Shown here: positions 24,711 to 58,867 of the stretch, one piece after another
How the letters are laid out: each line of letters begins with the position of its first letter
Position numbering within the stretch: position 1 is the first letter of the stretch
Source: Planctomycetaceae bacterium
GTDB lineage: Bacteria > Planctomycetota > Planctomycetia > Pirellulales > PNKZ01
Length of the DNA: 64,000 bases
Reading direction: 5' to 3'
NCBI GenBank assembly: GCA_016793115.1
Contig: JAEUIN010000207.1
Coordinates: 1-64,000, forward strand
Notes under the pieces: model-generated
What the model saw: only the letters and a program-made list of their open reading frames with translations
Databases searched by the model: none
Told to the model about the DNA's origin: nothing
Position numbers and translations under genes: made by a program

Positions 24711-24861
24711 ACGAGTTCTCCTTTTGACCACTCCTTGGCCGAGTCGAGCGCGATGCGTATATTCAGACGTTCGCGTCGCGGCGTAGCGATCGGTCACATG
24801 AAGTCATCGTATCGGATTGTCGTCGCAGCCGCCAACTCTTCACGAGGTCGCCCGATTCCGC

Positions 24862-26064
24862 ATGGCAACATCCATCGAAGACGCCCCCCGCAGCCGCCGG
24901 GGGCGAGTGAAACCGACGGCTGCTGAAAAGTCGGCGGAACGGAACGCGGCGACGTCGACGGCCGCGAAGAAGCCGGCCGCCGCCGATGATGTCGTCGCGA
25001 TTTTCCAAGCCGCCGCCCATGGCACGCGCGTCGACGGACTCCCCTTCTTCTGCGAGGCCGGCGACGCCTTGACGGCTGGCGCGGTGCAATTGGCGAACGT
25101 GCATTCGCTTTCCGTGGCCGCCCTCGGCGATACGAAGCAATCGGCGGCGGTGAAAGCTTTGCTGCGACGCGTCGTCGCGCGCGATGGAATTCCGACGACG
25201 GAGAAAAAGGGGATACCGGTTCCTCCGGCCGCATATCACAGCGAAGCGCGACAGCGCACCGTGATGCGGACCGATTGGTCGCGCAGCGCCGCGGAGTTGG
25301 CGCTCGATTGGTCGCAACCGGAGATTCGCATCGAGTTTTGTGTCGGCGGACGCGAACTGCTCCGCGGCGTGATGGGAATCGCTGTCGAGGTCGACGGCGC
25401 GCCCGCACGGCCGACGACGGCCTGGGAAGAGGTTTGCTGGGAATCCAACGTCGACGTCGACTATTTGGAACTGGAAATCGCATTGGGCGCGCACCGCTTG
25501 CAGCGGCAATTTATCCTGACGCGCCGCGACGGATTGTTGTTCGTCGCCGACACGGTTTTGCTCGCGACGCGGGGAAAGGTGCGGTGCGAGCTGCGACTGC
25601 CGGTCGCCGGCGATGTGCAATGGCGGCCCGCCGCGGAGATGCGGGAGGGCCTGTTGACGAACGGCAAAGCGAAAGCGTTGGTTATTCCGCCGACGCTGCC
25701 CGAGTGGCGCAGCGAGAAGCGGGGCGGCGAGTTGGAGGTCGACGCCGGCGGCGTCGCCTTATCGCAGATCACGGGCGAAGCGCACGGTCTGCATTTGCCG
25801 CTGATGTTCGTTTACGACTCGCGCCGCGCAGGCCGCGAATGCACTTGGCGGCAGTTGACCGTCGGCGAAGACATGCAGATCGTCGCGCCGGATAAAGCGG
25901 CCGCGATCCGCCTGCAGATCGGCAACGAGCATTGGCTCGCCTATCGCTCTCTGACGGAGCGGGCGAACCGGACGTTTATGGGAATTAATCTGCAGACTAA
26001 CTTTCTGCTGACGAGATTCACGAAATCCGGCGAAAGCGAACCGCTCGTCGAGATCGACGACTAG
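24862..26064 (+). CDS. Hypothetical protein, beta-rich
   Basis: The 400-residue product starts with a basic, Ala-rich stretch (to about residue 50) without a clear signal peptide, followed by a long domain of alternating beta strands that superficially resembles the C-terminal part of heparinase II/III-like proteins. I recognise no catalytic motif. It ends 12 bases before the AUU start proposed for yggS, so the two are probably co-transcribed. The ATG at 24862 is the first good start; a TTG at 24817 is also in frame. Confidence 0.6.
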   Translation: MATSIEDAPRSRRGRVKPTAAEKSAERNAATSTAAKKPAAADDVVAIFQAAAHGTRVDGLPFFCEAGDALTAGAVQLANVHSLSVAALGDTKQSAAVKALLRRVVARDGIPTTEKKGIPVPPAAYHSEARQRTVMRTDWSRSAAELALDWSQPEIRIEFCVGGRELLRGVMGIAVEVDGAPARPTTAWEEVCWESNVDVDYLELEIALGAHRLQRQFILTRRDGLLFVADTVLLATRGKVRCELRLPVAGDVQWRPAAEMREGLLTNGKAKALVIPPTLPEWRSEKRGGELEVDAGGVALSQITGEAHGLHLPLMFVYDSRRAGRECTWRQLTVGEDMQIVAPDKAAAIRLQIGNEHWLAYRSLTERANRTFMGINLQTNFLLTRFTKSGESEPLVEIDD

Positions 26065-26076
26065 GAGACCTGCGCG

Positions 26077-26811
26077 ATTAACGATCGGCCGTCGCAAGAC
26101 GTTTCACGACGCATCGCCGCCAACTACTCGGCCGTATTGTCGCGCGTCGCCGCCGCGGCTCGTGCGGCGGGACGCGAGCCGAATGCAATACGGCTGATCG
26201 CCGTGACGAAGTACGTCGATGTCGCGACGACTCGACTGCTCGTCGACGCCGGTTGCCGCGATCTCGGCGAATCGCGTCCTCAGCAGTTGTGGGACAAAGC
26301 GGCCGAACTCAGCGCACTGGAGACTAGCTGGCACTTGATCGGCCATATGCAGCGCAATAAGTTGCGTCGCACGTTGCCGCTCGTTCACCTATTACATTCC
26401 GGCGATTCGTTACGATTGCTTCAAGAAGCGAACGCCGAAGCGGGGCGGGCCGGAATTGTGCGCGTACCGGTGTTGCTGGAGGTGAATGTCTCGGGCGACG
26501 CAACGAAGCACGGTTTTGGGCTCGAAGAGGTGCCCAGGTTGGCGGACCAATTGGCGACGCTGAGCTATCTCGACGTGCGCGGGCTGATGTGCATGGCCGG
26601 TTTGGAAGGGAACAAAGACGACGCACGGCGCGACTTCGCGAAACTGCGGCTACTAAGCGAGCGACTGCGAGGGGAGTGGGCCGGCCGGTTCGCTCTCAAC
26701 GAGCTTTCCATGGGGATGAGCGGGGATTTCGAAGCGGCGATCGCCGAAGGTTCGACGATGGTTCGCATCGGATCGGCACTTTTTGAAGGACTCGACGAGA
26801 CGGCGGGCTAA
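26077..26811 (+). CDS. YggS/PLPBP-type pyridoxal phosphate-binding protein, probable AUU start
   Basis: A fold-type III alanine-racemase-like PLP-binding protein that helps keep PLP homeostasis. The PLP lysine is in LIAVTKYV (Lys45), and LNELSMGMSGDFEAAI and STMVRIGSALF are the usual phosphate-binding and C-terminal blocks. The N-terminal helix RRIAANYSAVLSRV matches the family but lies upstream of the first standard start, a TTG at 26137. Between the in-frame stop at 26062 and that TTG there is no ATG or GTG; an ATT at 26077 follows AGGAG with nine bases spacing. I therefore annotate an AUU start, 244 residues. A DUF167 gene follows after 3 nt, a common pairing. Confidence 0.85.
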   Translation: MNDRPSQDVSRRIAANYSAVLSRVAAAARAAGREPNAIRLIAVTKYVDVATTRLLVDAGCRDLGESRPQQLWDKAAELSALETSWHLIGHMQRNKLRRTLPLVHLLHSGDSLRLLQEANAEAGRAGIVRVPVLLEVNVSGDATKHGFGLEEVPRLADQLATLSYLDVRGLMCMAGLEGNKDDARRDFAKLRLLSERLRGEWAGRFALNELSMGMSGDFEAAIAEGSTMVRIGSALFEGLDETAG

Positions 26812-26814
26812 ACG

Positions 26815-27123
26815 ATGGCCGTTAAATTGGACGTTACGGCGGCCGGAATTGCCTTCGGTGTGAAGGCTCAACCGGGTGCGCGAAAGAACGCCGTGCGCGG
26901 CGAGCACGATGGTTGCCTCAGAGTTTCCGTCACTCAGGCCGCGGAGAAGGGAAGGGCCAACGAAGCAATCGCGGCCGTACTAGGTGAAGCACTGGGATTG
27001 CGAACGAATCAACTCGCTTTGATCTCGGGGGCGACCAATTCACGTAAACGATTCGTTGCGTCGGGTATTACCGTCGAAGAACTGAACCGGCGGATCGCTT
27101 CGTGTTTAACCGAGTCGAGTTAA
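26815..27123 (+). CDS. DUF167 (YggU) family protein
   Basis: The 102-residue protein shows the family pattern: VKAQPGARKNAV near the start, LRVSVTQAAEKGRANEAI in the middle and LISGATNSRKRF with VEELNRRI at the end. The family is a small conserved domain of uncertain role that is often encoded next to YggS. Its start ATG lies 3 nt after the yggS stop, so translation is probably coupled. The gene converges with greA, with only 13 nt between the stops. Confidence 0.87.
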   Translation: MAVKLDVTAAGIAFGVKAQPGARKNAVRGEHDGCLRVSVTQAAEKGRANEAIAAVLGEALGLRTNQLALISGATNSRKRFVASGITVEELNRRIASCLTESS

Positions 27124-27136
27124 AGGGCCGCCCCCC

Positions 27137-27616
27137 TTACTCTTCGTAGCGAATTTCGAGAATTTTGAAACGCATCTTTCCGGCAGGAACGTCAATCTCG
27201 ACTTTCTGCCCGACCTTTTGACCGACCAGGCCTTGGGCCAACGGGCTGGTGATCAAGATCTTGCCTTCGTCGTAGTTCTCATCGCCCGCGCCGACAAGGA
27301 CAAATGTCTCTTCATCGCCGAACTCCAAGTCTTTCACGACCACCGTGGCCCCAAACGCCACTTCGTCTTTCGGCATCGTCGACAAGTCGATGATCTGCGC
27401 GCGGCTGAGCTTGTCATTCAACAAGTTGATCTTGGCCTGCAGCATGCCTTGGCTTTCGCGAGCGCCGTGATACTCGGCATTCTCCTTCAAATCCCCCTCG
27501 GCGCGCGCTTCCGCGATGCGCTTTGCAACCGCGGGCATTTCGACGTCTTCGAGGTGTCGCAATTCGGCTTTGAGTTTATCGTAGCCCGAGCGACTCATCG
27601 GGATGTATTCGGCCAT
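27137..27616 (-). CDS. greA: Transcription elongation factor GreA
   Basis: GreA, 159 residues. The N-terminal coiled coil carries the acidic tip region ([19 protein letters not shown]), followed by the C-terminal FKBP-like domain with [37 protein letters not shown]-like strands (here [11 protein letters not shown]) and [10 protein letters not shown]. It binds the RNA polymerase secondary channel and stimulates cleavage of backtracked transcripts. The ATG has GGAG upstream; the longer frame to 27679 is not needed. The leader between its promoter and start contains a terminator-like hairpin (see below). Confidence 0.95.
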
Positions 27617-27634
27617 GACAATCTCCGCAAACGC

Positions 27635-27667
27635 AAAAAAAGACGACCTCGTCCGATAGGCGAGGCC
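27635..27667 (-). terminator. Terminator hairpin in the greA leader
   Basis: On the minus strand a 7-bp stem (27667-27661 and 27651-27645, one G-U pair, 9-base loop) is followed by GTC and seven T (27641-27635). It could end the upstream zinc-ribbon gene transcript, but it sits only about 19 bases before the greA start and downstream of a promoter-like sequence. Confidence 0.6.
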
Positions 27668-27677
27668 GCATGAAACC

Positions 27678-27706
27678 ATTTTGATCGGAACGGACCGAAC
27701 TGTAAA
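27678..27706 (-). promoter_or_regulatory. Probable promoter for greA
   Basis: TTTACA (27706-27701) and CAAAAT (27683-27678) are separated by exactly 17 bases on the minus strand. The predicted start near 27671 gives a leader of about 55 bases that includes the terminator-like hairpin. Confidence 0.45.
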
Positions 27707-28642: not shown

Positions 28643-30328
28643 TTACGACGTCAGGGCCAAACCGGTGAGGAAGCCTTCCAATTGTTGGCTGCGCACCGGG
28701 TGTTGTAGCTTCCGAACAGCCTTGGCCTCGATTTGGCGGACGCGTTCCCGCGTCACCTTGAAGATGCGGCCCACTTCTTCGAGCGTATAGGTATACCCGT
28801 CGCCCAAGCCGTAGCGAAGGCGAATGATTTCCCGTTCGCGATATGTCAACGTCTTGAGCAAGCCTTCGATCTTATCGCGGAGCATCACTTGAGATGCGCT
28901 CGTAATTGGGCTTTGGGTGTTGTCGTCTTGGATAAACTCTCCGAAGGCCGCGTCTTCGCTTTCGCCGATCGGGCGATCGAGGCTCACCGGCTGCCGACCG
29001 ATGCTCATCACCCGCTTCGTTTCTTCAATGCTCAGTTCGGCTGCGATCGCCGTTTCCTCCGTCGTCGGTTCGCGACCGAGTTCTTGTTGCAATTTCTTGG
29101 CCACGTTGCGAAGCTTCGAGAGCACGTCGATCATGTGGACCGGAATCCTAATCGTCCGGGCCTGATCGGCGATCGCCCGCGTGATGGCCTGCCGAATCCA
29201 CCACGTGGCGTACGTGGAGAACTTGTAACCGCGGCGATATTCGTACTTATCGACGGCCCGCATCAACCCCGTATTGCCTTCTTGGATCAAGTCCAAAAAG
29301 CTCAAGCCGCGATTGCGATACTTCTTGGCGATCGAGACGACCAACCGCAAGTTGCCGCCGGAAAGTTGGCGCTTGGCGTTTTCGTATTCGCGAAATTGAA
29401 CCTTGATCCGTTCGAGCTTGATGCGGAGCGTTTGCGAGCTCTCCATCGTCGAACACATCAGGTCGCGCAGTTCTTTGCGCAGGTTGGCGCGATCGTCTTT
29501 CGCCGCGGCGTTGCCTTCCAAATTGCCGATCTTCAGTTTGAGCGATTCCATGCGGACGAGCATCGAATCAAGCTGACGAATCATCGGTTGGACGCGGCGC
29601 GTGCGCAAGCTCAATTCCTCGACGAGGACGAGCATCTTATGGCGGCGCGCGAAGATTTTGCGACGCAGCGCGCGACGCTCTTCCGGAGCGGTCGCTTTGC
29701 TGAGGCAGCGTTTGAAGTCGCCGCGGTTTTCCTTCATGAGCCGTTCGAGCGTCGCCAGGTTGTGCGGCATACGCTGCAGAATCTGCTCTTTCGTCAATTG
29801 CTCCGTGAGCGACACCTTGATCGTGCGATCGAACGGCAGCGCGCCTTGGTGCACTTTTTTGAGAGTTTCGACCGTGTGGTGCATCGCGTAGTAGCAGCTC
29901 AACAGCGAGCGCCGGAAGCGCTTGCGGGTGATTTCGATCTTCTTCGCCAGCGAGATTTCCTGCTCGCGCGTGAGGAGCGGAATTTCCGCCATTTGGCCGA
30001 GATAGAGACGAATCGGGTCGTCGCTCCACTTCGGCGTGTCGGCGGCCGATTTCTTCGTCGGACGGGGCATCGTCGCCGGGCGCTCGTCTTCATCGAAGTC
30101 GAGCAATTGCTGCTTGCCGGCCGCAGTCGCGGGAGCGTCGGCCTTCGGCGCGGGGGCCTCGGTCACGAGCTCGATCCCCATGTCCTCAAGCGCAATCAAA
30201 AGATTGTCGAGCTTGTCGGGGTTGACCGCTTCATCCGGCAGGTAATCGTTCACCTGATCGTAGGTGAGATAGCCTTGGGCCTTGCCGGTCGCGATGAGTT
30301 GCTGCAAGTCGTTGTCTGCGTGGTCCAC
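28643..30328 (-). CDS. rpoD: Primary sigma factor RpoD (sigma-70)
   Basis: The 561-residue housekeeping sigma factor. Region 1.1 is short (about 1-60), region 1.2 starts at [11 protein letters not shown], a non-conserved basic insertion of roughly 150 residues follows, and region 2 is canonical with [32 protein letters not shown] and [10 protein letters not shown] (the -10 binding segment). Regions 3 and 4 end with [22 protein letters not shown], the -35-binding helix-turn-helix. The start is GTG behind GGAGG. The gene follows dnaG on the same strand, has a promoter of its own and ends in a strong terminator. Confidence 0.97.
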
Positions 30329-53496: not shown

Positions 53497-56295
53497 TTAC
53501 CGCGCCGCTTGTTGCGTCGCGGTTTCGGAAGGAACCGCGAACGTACGGATTTCCGCCGCGGTCTCGGCGTTCCAGACGCGGAGCACGCCGTCGTGGCCGC
53601 CGGCAACGATGGTCTTGCCGTCGGCGGTGACGGCGGAGCAATAGACGAAGTCCGTCGCTCCGGGGTAGTTCTTCGTCGTCTGGCCGTTATCTCCGTTGAC
53701 CAAGCGAACCGACTTGTCGCCGCTCGTGGCGACGACGCTGAGCCCGGCGCCCGCGAACGCCAGCGACGTGACTTCCTTCGTGAACCCGGTGACGGTCCGC
53801 TTCTGTTCGCCGGTCCCGACGTCCCAAAGCTTCAGCACGGAATCGGCTCCGGCGCTGGCGAGCGATTTGCCGTCGGCCGACCAGGCGGCGCCGAGCACAT
53901 GATGCGTGTGGCCTTCATAGCCGCGGACGAATTTGCCGTCGGTGACGTTGAAGACTTTGAGGAACTTGTCCGCTCCGCAGGAGGCGAGATGCTTGCCGTC
54001 GGGAGAAAAGCGAACGCCGAGGACGACGTCGCTGTGGGCGTCAACGATTTCGCGCGCGAGCGAACCGTCGGCGACGTTCCAAAGTTTCAGTTCGCCGCTG
54101 CGCGACGGTTCGCCGCCGCCGGAGGCGAGCAATTTGCCGTCGGGGCTGAAGTCCAGAGAAGTCACACGATCGACCAACGTGCGGCTCGCCGGGTCGCCGA
54201 TCGTTCGAACGAGTTGCCATTCGCCCTCGAATGAGCGAACGGCGATCGATTTATCGGCCGAGGCGGCGACAATACGATTGCCGACAAATGTGATATTGGT
54301 GATCGGGGCCGCCGCACCGCCCACTGCTTCGAGCGGTGTGCAATTGTCCGCCGAGTAGAACGACAGGAGCTTGTCGTCGCCTCCGACGGCGATCGAGAGG
54401 CCGTCGGCGGAGAATGCGACGCTGCGGAGCGGAGCTTGCGCCTCGCCGGCCCGCTTCTGTGCCGCGACGAGTTGCGCTTCGACATCCTTCTGCTTTTGCT
54501 CCGATGCCTTAAGTTGGGCTTGGGCGGCGGGCACCGCATCGGCCGATTTCTTGGCGGCCGCCTTCGCTGAAGTTACGGCGCGGCCGGCGGATTGCGCCGC
54601 AGTATTCGCATCGCTCTTCGCTTTTTCGGCGTCTTCCGCCGCTTTCGTCGCCTTGGTCAGCGCGTCGGCCTTGGCTTTGTCTTTTTCGTTGCCTTTCGCG
54701 GCGGTCTCGGCCTTTTGCTTCTCGCCGGCGGCTTTCGCGGCGGCTTCAGTTTTCTCTTTCAACGTTTTGTCGGCGGCGACTTTGGCTTCCTCGGCCTTCT
54801 TCACGCCGTCGGCCTCGGTTTTGGCGTTCTTTTCCGCCTCGGCGACGGCCGCTTTGTCGGCGGCGACGGCCGCTTTTGCCAAGCCGACCGAGCGATCCAG
54901 CGCCGCGACTTCGCGAGCGACTCGTACGTCGCCCCGGGCTTCGCCCGCCGGTTTGCCGTCGGCCATGTTCCAGACCCTCACCGCTTTGTCGACGTTCGTC
55001 GCGGCGATGCGGCTTCCGTCGGGGCGTACCGCGACCGACGTCACTTCCGCGCCTGCCTTCGTCATTGCGCGAACCTGCTTACCGTCGGCCGCGTTCCAAA
55101 CGACGACGTTGCCCCCTTCATCACCGGAGACGATCTGCGTCGGCGCCGACGGCACGACGGCCAGCGACGTGACACGCTTGCCGGGAACGGCGAATTCACG
55201 AACGGCGGCGAGTTTCGCGTCACCCGCTTTGAACGCGGCGACACGAATCTTGCCGTCGACCGCGCCCGCCGCAAGCTGTGTTGCGTCGGCCAGAAACGAG
55301 ACCGCCGTGAACTCCGCCGGAGCGTCGAGTTGAGCAAGTTGCTTGCCGTCGGCGGCGTTCCAAATGCGGAGCGACTTATCGGCTGACGCGGTGGCGATTT
55401 TAGCGCCGTCCGCCGAGAAAGCGACGGCCCTCACCGTTCCCTTATGCCCAATAAGTTTTGCCCCGGGTTTACGATCCTCCACGTTCCAAATGCCGACCTC
55501 GTTGCCGACCGCGGCGGCGACGATTTTGCCGTCGCGCGAGGCGGCCAGCGCGGTCGGGGCGACTGCGAGCGGTCCCCCGAAAAGCGGCTCCATCGTCGCC
55601 TGCGGGCGCCGCCACAGCTTGATCGTGCGGAAGCCGCCGGAAGCCAAGAGAGTCCCGTCGGGACTAAAAGCGAGAGCCTGTATCAGATCAAGATCGGCGA
55701 CGCCGGGCTTCGAGTAGAGGCCGGATTTAAGCAAGGACGGGTCGGTGAGCCGACCGAGCGAGCGGCCGGTCGGCACATGGTAGATGAATATCTGATTGGC
55801 GCGACCGCAGGCGGCGAACTGGCCGTCGTTCGTGAGTGCTACGGCGAAGATCGGCTGAACGCCCGACGGCAGCGGTTGCCAGACAATCGTCTCTGCGGCC
55901 GCGGCGCCTATTTTCGCACCTTGATCGATCCACAGCTTAATGACCTCGATTTCCTTGGCCGTCAGTCGCTTGGCCCCGACTTTGTTATCGGGCGGCGGCA
56001 TTTGCTCGTCTTCGGTCGCCAGGGCACGCGTGACGAGTAAGCTCTCTGCGCCTTTACCGGCCACTGCTGCGGCGCCGGAATCGCCCCCCTTCAAAATCGT
56101 CGCGGGCGTTTCGAGAATGAGGCTCCCTTCCTTTTTCGAAGCATTGTGGCACGCGGTGCAGTTCTTCTTGAGAACGGGAGCGACGTGCTTGCCGAAATCG
56201 ATCGGCTCCGGCGAGCTATCTGCGGCGTCGGCGGGCGCGGCGGCGAACCACACAGCGGTCGACGAAAGTATCGCAAGGGAGAGTGAACGGAACAT
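53497..56295 (-). CDS. Secreted cytochrome c-type/WD40 protein with central coiled coil
   Basis: A 932-residue exported protein. After the signal peptide a Planctomycete cytochrome c domain has NCTACH (CxxCH, near residue 45) and MPPPD with the Met ligand. WD40-type repeats (LASGGFRTIKLWR, VWNAADGKQ, RVWNMADG) fill about residues 140-430. An Ala/Lys/Glu coiled coil of about 150 residues separates them from a second WD40 group (about 630-920). The fusion of heme domain and two propellers is typical of Planctomycetes. GAGGA lies before the ATG. Role unknown; it is in a set with a PPC and a DUF1549 protein. Confidence 0.88.
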   Translation of the reverse strand: MFRSLSLAILSSTAVWFAAAPADAADSSPEPIDFGKHVAPVLKKNCTACHNASKKEGSLILETPATILKGGDSGAAAVAGKGAESLLVTRALATEDEQMPPPDNKVGAKRLTAKEIEVIKLWIDQGAKIGAAAAETIVWQPLPSGVQPIFAVALTNDGQFAACGRANQIFIYHVPTGRSLGRLTDPSLLKSGLYSKPGVADLDLIQALAFSPDGTLLASGGFRTIKLWRRPQATMEPLFGGPLAVAPTALAASRDGKIVAAAVGNEVGIWNVEDRKPGAKLIGHKGTVRAVAFSADGAKIATASADKSLRIWNAADGKQLAQLDAPAEFTAVSFLADATQLAAGAVDGKIRVAAFKAGDAKLAAVREFAVPGKRVTSLAVVPSAPTQIVSGDEGGNVVVWNAADGKQVRAMTKAGAEVTSVAVRPDGSRIAATNVDKAVRVWNMADGKPAGEARGDVRVAREVAALDRSVGLAKAAVAADKAAVAEAEKNAKTEADGVKKAEEAKVAADKTLKEKTEAAAKAAGEKQKAETAAKGNEKDKAKADALTKATKAAEDAEKAKSDANTAAQSAGRAVTSAKAAAKKSADAVPAAQAQLKASEQKQKDVEAQLVAAQKRAGEAQAPLRSVAFSADGLSIAVGGDDKLLSFYSADNCTPLEAVGGAAAPITNITFVGNRIVAASADKSIAVRSFEGEWQLVRTIGDPASRTLVDRVTSLDFSPDGKLLASGGGEPSRSGELKLWNVADGSLAREIVDAHSDVVLGVRFSPDGKHLASCGADKFLKVFNVTDGKFVRGYEGHTHHVLGAAWSADGKSLASAGADSVLKLWDVGTGEQKRTVTGFTKEVTSLAFAGAGLSVVATSGDKSVRLVNGDNGQTTKNYPGATDFVYCSAVTADGKTIVAGGHDGVLRVWNAETAAEIRTFAVPSETATQQAAR

Positions 56296-56362
56296 GATGC
56301 ATCCTCGAATGGGGCGAGCGGCGAGCGTGCAGGTGGGAGGCGGACGAGTAGGCGACGGAAAG

Positions 56363-58867
56363 TTACTTGGCGGGTTTTTTCGAATCGACAGGTTTCGGCG
56401 GTTCGACCAAACGAACGACGAGATTGTTCGATGTAAGCGGTACGTTGGCGATTGAACGTGGTGCGACCGCTTTTTGCTTCGCGTCGGCGGAGGCTTGCGC
56501 CGTCTTCAGCGCGGCTTCGGCCGCTTGGAGCTTCGCAGCGGTCTCCGCCACGGCTTTATCGGCGGCCGGCTTCTTTGCCTTGTCGGCCGCCGCAGCCGCT
56601 TTCTTCTCAGTTTCGAGGGCGGTCCGCCGTTCGGCGACGACTTTTTCAATCGCTTGCTTCCGTTGCGCGGCGGACTCGGCGCTGCGCTTGTCGCGGACGT
56701 AGTTGAGCTTCGCCTGTGCCGCCAGATAGAAACCGAATTCGCCAAGCGGAGCGTTCGCCGCGGTTTCAAGCGTGAGTTTCGCTTCTTGTGCGTTGCCGGC
56801 GACTTTCACCGTTGCGGCTTTCACGCCGGCGGGGAGTCCGGCCGCAGTCAATAAGACTTCATCTTTAAAGTCCGCGCGGCGCACCAGCTTGATCGGAACT
56901 TCAAGTTTTTGTCCGCGCGCCGTTTCGGGAATCTTGCCGTCGCCGAGTTGAATTGTCAGCGGCATCTTCTCCGCGCCGTTGACGGCCAACGCATAGTCGC
57001 GGGCCACGCGTCCTTCCGCCGATTGATTGTTCGTGGGAGCCGCCGTGGTGAATACGACGGTACGCGCTTCGTGCTTCAACTTGAGCGCATCCGCCTCGCC
57101 TTCGCCGACGATGCGAATCGACCCTTGCCAATCGGCGACACTTTCAGCGGCGGTCAGGGAAAGCGTCGCGGCGTTTTGCCCGGCGGCAATGACCGCCGAG
57201 GAAGCGACGACACCGGCGGGCAAACCTTCGACGCGCAGAGAGACCGGGCCGGTGAAGCCGTCGCGACGCTCGGCAAGCACGGTCAGCATCGATGTTTCGC
57301 CCGCGCGAAGTAAAGAACCGGCGGGGCCGTATTTGCGACCGTCGTTGTTGTCTTTCGAGCCGGCCAAAGGATAGGCATACGCGGCGAGACGAAAGTCAGG
57401 AGTCGGCTTTCGGAGGCTCAGGCGATAGATCAGGCGAGCTTCGCCGCGGGTGTCGCCGTAGAGGTCGCGAACGAGGACACGGAAGCGACCGTCGGCGGGT
57501 GCGGTGAAGATGTACGACGCGTCGTTCGAATTGAGACTCAATTTGACGCCGGGGGGCGCTTTACCTTCGTCGTCGATTTCTTTGAGGTCGCCCCATGCCG
57601 TCTTGCCGTCGGCCGATTTATTGGCCTGCTGCAGGAGCAGCACCGGGTCGGTCTTCAGGCCGAGTCGCTGTGCGGTGATTTCAATGGAGACAGCTTCACC
57701 TTTCTTAGCGTCGAACGCGAAGCAATCCAGGTCGCCGCGGCGGAGGAATTGGCCGGCGATTTCGCAGGGCACCGTCACTGGTTGATTTTGTTCGCCGCCC
57801 TTGGCGTCGGAGCCGTCGTTGGGCTCTTGTTCGAGTACGACGGGGTTCGACACACAATTGAGTACGACCGAATTGGAAGGCCCCGACGACGTCTTTAAAC
57901 GGTATTCGCGGCCGTCGATGAAGGATTGGGCCGCATCGAAATAGCCGGGCGCCGTGAGTCGATCGGCGGATTCGTCGGCGGGGACGTCGGCGGGGACGTC
58001 GATCTCAACGTCGAGGCGTTCCAGCGGCCTACCAAATACAACGGCTTCGGGTGCCGGTTTGCCCCCGGGAAGATTGCGGCCGTAGACGGCGAGTTTGTTC
58101 TTCGCGCCCAAGCGTACAAACGGCGGATACACGAAATCGACGTATGAGCCCTGATGCAAAGCGAGGCGGTAAAAAAAGTCGGAGCCGCCGCCGTAGGTGA
58201 AATCGTACAAGTTGATGAAGTAATCGCCGTCGGCCGGAATGACGAGGTCGACGAGCGGGTCGCGACGATTCACGTCGCGGCTGCGGGCCAACTCGCGTCG
58301 CGTGGCGTCGTAGACGACGAGCGTCGCGTCGATCTTCGAGTCGATGCGTTGTCCGAACACGTCGATGATAACACGTGCTCCCTTCTGTCCGCGAAAACGA
58401 AACCAGTCTTCCGTATTCGCCGCGACGGAACCGTTGACGACCGTACCGACGTCGATGGGGGCGGCCTTGTCGAATGACTGGTTGCCGGCGGGTTCAAGCG
58501 ATTCTTTCCAACGGTCGACGGCAAAAGTGAGCGGGTTGGAGACGCCCATCGCGCCTGCGGCGCGGACATCATAAAGGCCCGGCGGCACATCGGCGGCAAT
58601 CGTCACGACAAAGCGATTGTCGACCGGCTCGCTTTGCCCGTCGAAGACTATGGAGGGACGCGTCGCCTGCTTGGCCTGAATTCCCGGATGGGAAAACAGC
58701 AGCCGATCGATTCCGTCGGCTTCGGTCGCATTAACGGCCACGTCGACGGCGGTGCCCGCTTGGCCGCCGCAGGGCGTGAGCGTCTTGAGTTCAACGACCG
58801 GCAACTGTGCCGCGGCGGAGGACGCAAACACGAGAAGCAGCGACGAAAGCGTTAGTGGTCGAATCAT
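56363..58867 (-). CDS. Large secreted protein with PPC domains
   Basis: The 834-residue exported protein (signal peptide ending ASSAAAQ) starts with an Ig-like/TIG-type domain, followed by bacterial pre-peptidase C-terminal (PPC) domains recognisable by DWFRFRGQKGARVIIDVFGQR, DGDYFINLYDFTYGG and DCFAFDAKKGEAVSIEI, which repeat. A C-terminal Lys/Ala-rich coiled coil of about 100 residues ends the protein. PPC domains bind proteins or polysaccharides in secreted enzymes. It lies between the DUF1549 and WD40 genes on the same strand, with gaps near 60 nt. Confidence 0.82.
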   Translation of the reverse strand: MIRPLTLSSLLLVFASSAAAQLPVVELKTLTPCGGQAGTAVDVAVNATEADGIDRLLFSHPGIQAKQATRPSIVFDGQSEPVDNRFVVTIAADVPPGLYDVRAAGAMGVSNPLTFAVDRWKESLEPAGNQSFDKAAPIDVGTVVNGSVAANTEDWFRFRGQKGARVIIDVFGQRIDSKIDATLVVYDATRRELARSRDVNRRDPLVDLVIPADGDYFINLYDFTYGGGSDFFYRLALHQGSYVDFVYPPFVRLGAKNKLAVYGRNLPGGKPAPEAVVFGRPLERLDVEIDVPADVPADESADRLTAPGYFDAAQSFIDGREYRLKTSSGPSNSVVLNCVSNPVVLEQEPNDGSDAKGGEQNQPVTVPCEIAGQFLRRGDLDCFAFDAKKGEAVSIEITAQRLGLKTDPVLLLQQANKSADGKTAWGDLKEIDDEGKAPPGVKLSLNSNDASYIFTAPADGRFRVLVRDLYGDTRGEARLIYRLSLRKPTPDFRLAAYAYPLAGSKDNNDGRKYGPAGSLLRAGETSMLTVLAERRDGFTGPVSLRVEGLPAGVVASSAVIAAGQNAATLSLTAAESVADWQGSIRIVGEGEADALKLKHEARTVVFTTAAPTNNQSAEGRVARDYALAVNGAEKMPLTIQLGDGKIPETARGQKLEVPIKLVRRADFKDEVLLTAAGLPAGVKAATVKVAGNAQEAKLTLETAANAPLGEFGFYLAAQAKLNYVRDKRSAESAAQRKQAIEKVVAERRTALETEKKAAAAADKAKKPAADKAVAETAAKLQAAEAALKTAQASADAKQKAVAPRSIANVPLTSNNLVVRLVEPPKPVDSKKPAK

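Follow-up and report, generated by a model that had tools for sequence, protein, structure and literature searches.

Initiation at AUU and related codons is described for infC, which starts at AUU, AUC or AUA and is reported to be autoregulated by its own product. In one reconstruction, 1 in 61,358 ancestral AUG starts and 1 in 5,080 ancestral GUG starts became AUU (PMC5622118). AUU starts are thus very rare; the earlier note on this DNA called them rare outside infC, and pcnB and cvfC1 are further documented cases. The pcnB gene of E. coli is reported to start at AUU, and this start to limit expression. In S. aureus, cvfC1 (AUU) and ccpN (AUA) are reported to yield about 10% of the output of an AUG reporter in poor medium (PMC13009471). 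An excess of IF3 reportedly lowers re-initiation and Shine-Dalgarno (SD) sequences raise it (PMC2268962), and translational coupling has been proposed between pipX and pipY, a cyanobacterial relative of yggS (PMC9605639). Our search of the literature on YggS and start codons, judged by titles and the opening lines of abstracts, returned nothing on the start of yggS.

We analyzed a stretch of 64,000 nucleotides (the window) from a Planctomycetaceae bacterium, which lies in contig 242 of a draft genome of 7.3 Mb (411 contigs, 99.1% complete, 7.9% estimated contamination). The open frame of yggS spans positions 26065–26811 (+) and opens directly after a TAG (26062–26064, +). Its product scores 150.5 bits against TIGR00044 (cut-off 106.25) and 57.5 bits against PF01168 (cut-off 24.1), which places it in the YggS family of PLP homeostasis proteins. 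Read from the proposed AUU start codon, an ATT at 26077–26079 (+), the gene covers 26077–26811 (+) and comprises 244 codons plus the stop. The frame is intact and the protein matches all 24 columns found without variation in an alignment of 34 relatives. K45, in the VTK motif, is invariant across the 34 aligned sequences, and we take it to be the PLP-binding lysine (K36 in E. coli YggS). The TAG is the stop codon of an upstream open reading frame (24817–26064, +) of unknown family, which ends in SEPLVEIDD and shares the frame of yggS in the window; a profile search against Pfam and NCBIfam at E ≤ 0.001 returned no match for it. Homologues of this ORF, with pairwise identities of 41–58% and ending in EI(D/E), precede yggS in at least four related genomes (G001, G002, G003 and G006). 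Downstream of yggS lies a gene of the YggU/DUF167 family (26815–27123, +; PF02594, 64.1 bits for a cut-off of 30.9). Two ORFs on the opposite strand also neighbour yggS (27137–27679 and 28643–30328, both −); judging by eye, they resemble GreA and a primary sigma factor.

Between the in-frame TAG and the TTG at 26137–26139 (+), the first canonical start codon, the frame contains no ATG, GTG or TTG, and an AGGAG at 26063–26067 (+) lies 9 nt before the ATT, both as the earlier note had described. This SD-like motif overlaps the TAG and its predicted duplex with the anti-SD has an energy of −7.3 kcal/mol. The only other AUN codon ahead of the TTG is an ATC at 26113, inside the conserved helix. We estimated how often such a configuration arises by chance from 238 interior ATT codons in 49 long ORFs of the window: a 5-base SD match 4–10 nt upstream was found for six of them (2.5%) and a 4-base match for 17 (7.1%). 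We further compared 50 ORFs of the window, picked mechanically by length so that some may not be genes, and yggS alone presents an SD-preceded ATT, ATC or ATA before its first canonical start, barring one ATC that adjoins an ATG. In the ORF at 53497–56505 (−), the first ATG comes right after an ATC that has GAGG 4 nt before it, and this ATG is the simpler start. A run of at least 24 codons before the first canonical start was observed in 11 of the 50 ORFs and is not rare by itself; the weight of the case for AUU lies in homology rather than in the length of this run. The RNA fold predicted for the window pairs the AUU (unpaired probability 0.02–0.08), which counts against a start there. An RNA fold around the start shared by the window, G003 and G001 was sought and none was found, the AUU being open in G001 and mostly open in G003, so that we do not claim a shared structural control.

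We then compared the start of yggS across relatives. The family comprises seven genomes including that of the window, all of which possess yggS; four form the genus set (the window's genome, G000, with G001, G002 and G003) and three belong to other genera (G004, G005 and G006). The ATT is retained in three of the four genomes of the genus, including the window's, and G002 has ATG; candidate ATG starts were found in G004, G005 and G006. The sequence ATT AAC occupies the homologous place in the window, G003 and G001, which are separate assemblies. The earlier note had proposed checking the codon in close relatives, and the outcome favours AUU: two of the three congeners carry ATT preceded by an SD-like motif at the homologous place, which makes a base error in the window assembly very unlikely. 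The draft state of the genome and its estimated contamination leave some room for a sequencing or assembly error, or for a decaying gene, and we consider this highly improbable, given the ATT AAC of two other assemblies, the intact frame and the conservation of the 24 invariant columns.

On a broader scale, we read the start region of yggS in 180 loci from four samplings (30 + 80 + 21 + 49), after removing four loci that repeated counted genomes; near-identical records may remain, and the survey covers only part of the 282 genomes with a yggS match. The 80 loci of the second set are the best 80 of a scan of named genomes (36–58% identity), which possibly omits very near genomes and yielded no close relative. 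One of the 180 loci is truncated by a contig end. In the 30 codons that precede the Asn of helix 1, the 179 readable loci contain an ATG (156), a GTG instead (16), a TTG instead (5) or none of these (2), counts that reflect the availability of canonical codons and are not proof of their use as starts. The two loci without any canonical codon are those of the window and G003, and G001 belongs to the five loci with a TTG. Accordingly, a search for an in-frame canonical start upstream of the ATT returned none in the window or G003 and one TTG in G001. This TTG lies five codons before the ATT, inside the upstream ORF, with a predicted duplex of −10.9 kcal/mol that is stronger than the duplex at the ATT of G001; the stretch is G-rich and includes a contiguous SD match of only three bases. 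The yggS of G001 may therefore start at this TTG.

The position of the start determines how much of the N-terminus is translated. The AlphaFold2 model of YggS (mean pLDDT 95.4, and 79 over the first ten residues) places helix 1 at residues 7–30 numbered from the ATT (26095–26166, +), and the window, G001 and G003 all retain the RIAxN sequence of this helix. Because the TTG is codon 21 counted from the ATT, a start there would remove 14 of the 24 predicted helix residues, in line with the half that the earlier note had stated. Residues 4–230 of the solved E. coli YggS (1w8g) align to residues 13–240 of the window protein, and the TTG aligns near residue 12 of the E. coli protein. It could be argued that yggS nevertheless starts at this TTG with a first helix shortened in this species: it is the first canonical codon of the frame, G003 presents a GTG at the equivalent place (the same offset of 20 codons after the ATT), and three other solved relatives align only from about residue 30–34. 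However, the TTG lacks an SD (−1.7 kcal/mol) and the duplex at the GTG of G003 is weaker still (+1.9 kcal/mol), G001 has no canonical start near this place, its next one after the ATT being 38 codons on, and such a start would discard 14 of the 24 helix residues although RIAxN is conserved in the three species. We therefore regard a start at the TTG as quite unlikely.

The three ATT-bearing loci differ in how the ATT is embedded. In G001 and G003, a GGAG lies 7 nt before the ATT (predicted duplex −6.4 kcal/mol in both) within the codons GTG-GAG-ATC of the upstream ORF, and its presence there may be incidental; the SD bases are thus different from those of the window, where AGGAG overlaps the stop. 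The upstream ORF of G001 and G003 is in another frame than yggS and ends 2 nt past the ATT, forming an ATTAA stop-start overlap, whereas 12 nt separate the upstream stop from the ATT in the window. In the upstream ORF, the conserved EID codons stand 18 nt before the ATT in the window but 1 nt before it in both G003 and G001, a 17-nt difference that breaks the frame. In contrast, the distances from the ATT to the RIA codons (33 nt in the window, 36 nt in G003 and 21 nt in G001) are all multiples of three. Over the first eight helix codons, G001 and G003 differ at 1, 1 and 6 sites for codon positions 1, 2 and 3, a coding-like pattern; comparisons of these two species with the window are less skewed (2, 2, 3 and 3, 3, 4). 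Overall, the upstream ORF and yggS share one frame in the window and G006, and are in different frames in G001, G002 and G003.

This last comparison bears on a further alternative, in which ribosomes read through the TAG at 26062, the only codon that parts the two in-frame ORFs in the window, and YggS is part of a fusion protein. The shared frame of G006 is compatible with such a fusion, but the upstream ORF is out of the yggS frame in G002 as well as in G003 and G001, where it ends in ATTAA. We rejected read-through on this difference in frame and judge its probability to be slight.

Several observations thus converge on the ATT itself: ATT-AAC with an SD-like motif in two congeners, a frame that is kept 3′ of the codon and broken 5′ of it, and the loss of helix residues that a TTG start would impose. 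These results suggest that yggS is very probably translated from the AUU at 26077–26079, as the earlier note had proposed, and that the yggS genes of the two sister species probably also start at AUU. The conservation of ATT in G001 and G003 does not by itself point to selection for AUU, because the third base of the codon also starts the upstream TAA and is not free to change to G. In the window, the last T is free of any stop overlap and is one step away from ATG, yet ATT is kept.

We further analyzed the history of this codon. The tree of concatenated IF3, upstream ORF and YggS sequences for six taxa, (G005,(G006,(G002,(G000,(G001,G003))))), groups the ATT trio with support of 97/97 among ATG outgroups and G001 with G003 with 77/79, G005 being a long branch. 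The tree of the upstream ORF agrees with it (trio 88/90; G001 and G003 98/95) and the IF3 tree groups the trio weakly (59/87). The trees built on yggS only conflict with the concatenated tree: with 51 rows, L003 groups with the ATG-bearing L004 (98/85) and the trio forms one group in none of 200 bootstrap trees, and with six rows G000 groups with G003 (96/92) and leaves G001 outside. Preferring the concatenated tree over the yggS-only trees, we consider it likely that ATG changed to ATT a single time, before the three ATT-bearing species diverged. Because the upstream ORF ends in EIDD in both G002 and the window, the stop-start overlap seen in G001 and G003 (ATTAA) is probably the derived state.

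The earlier note had cited infC of E. coli as the precedent for an AUU start. We examined 31 infC loci (L114–L133 and L156–L166), of which 27 were readable by the motif that we used; by our reading, 23 of these present an ATC at the conserved N-terminus and the other four are without this ATC. In eight of the 23, the interval from the upstream stop to the ATC is free of canonical starts. In the window's own genome, infC presents GGAGG 8 nt before the ATC and a TTG five codons upstream. G002 contains two matches to IF3_N (G002:C84 and G002:C119, loci L156 and L157), the second of which does not contain the motif by which we read the starts. AUC thus seems to be the start codon of infC in this order, which would accordingly make use of AUN initiation. 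The parallel that the earlier note drew with infC stands, except that the codon of this lineage appears to be AUC rather than AUU.

These elements suggest how the start would operate. The AGGAG 9 nt upstream would place the 30S subunit on the AUU, which the initiator tRNA would read as formyl-methionine. Some of the initiating ribosomes would probably be those released from the upstream ORF at its TAG, which overlaps the SD, so that translation of yggS would be coupled to that of the upstream ORF. By analogy with other AUU and AUC starts, the output of the yggS AUU would be below that of an AUG and would be sensitive to IF3. The ATT probably took the place of an ATG only once, before the window's species separated from G001 and G003, and has been retained since.

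Whether the AUU does more than initiate can be seen in two ways. It might serve as a start without any regulatory role, the ATG having been lost by a small deletion or substitution, with a weak start being sufficient and then locked by the stop codon in G001 and G003; we give this about an even chance. The ATTAA overlap of these two species fits it and a low demand for YggS is plausible, but the T of the window is free to become G and the ATT stays there, with a different and stronger SD. Alternatively, yggS could be under AUN initiation control together with infC, such that YggS synthesis follows the level of IF3, termination of the upstream ORF, or both, a possibility that we consider rather doubtful. 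If true, this joint control would amount to a translational switch peculiar to the lineage that acts on the balance of vitamin B6, two of the species having an unusual AUUAA stop-start overlap.

An AUU start is of a rare kind, usually associated with low protein output and missed by gene finders, and a gene finder restricted to ATG, GTG and TTG would misplace the N-terminus of YggS in the window and in G003. An AUU shared by three species outside infC, with ATG in G002 and G006, offers a natural comparison to study what keeps weak starts.

The mechanism proposed for yggS is a known one; the gene and the lineage are new. Like infC with its AUU, AUC and AUA starts, yggS would combine an AUN codon, a preceding SD and a weak start, but infC is autoregulated, whereas yggS is not known to be linked to IF3 and its ATT was seen in just three species. 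The pcnB gene of E. coli is likewise a chromosomal gene with an AUU start; it is a different gene and its start was studied by experiment, whereas the start of yggS is proposed from sequence comparison. cvfC1 and ccpN of S. aureus are reported to share with yggS a conserved non-canonical start and an SD, and to differ from it by their Gram-positive host, extended SD motifs and proof by ribosome profiling (PMC13009471). Finally, sigR of Streptomyces is reported to use a rare start that gene finders overlooked, as would be the case for yggS, but its codon is GTC and its repression by IF3 is reported to have been demonstrated experimentally (PMC5472188).
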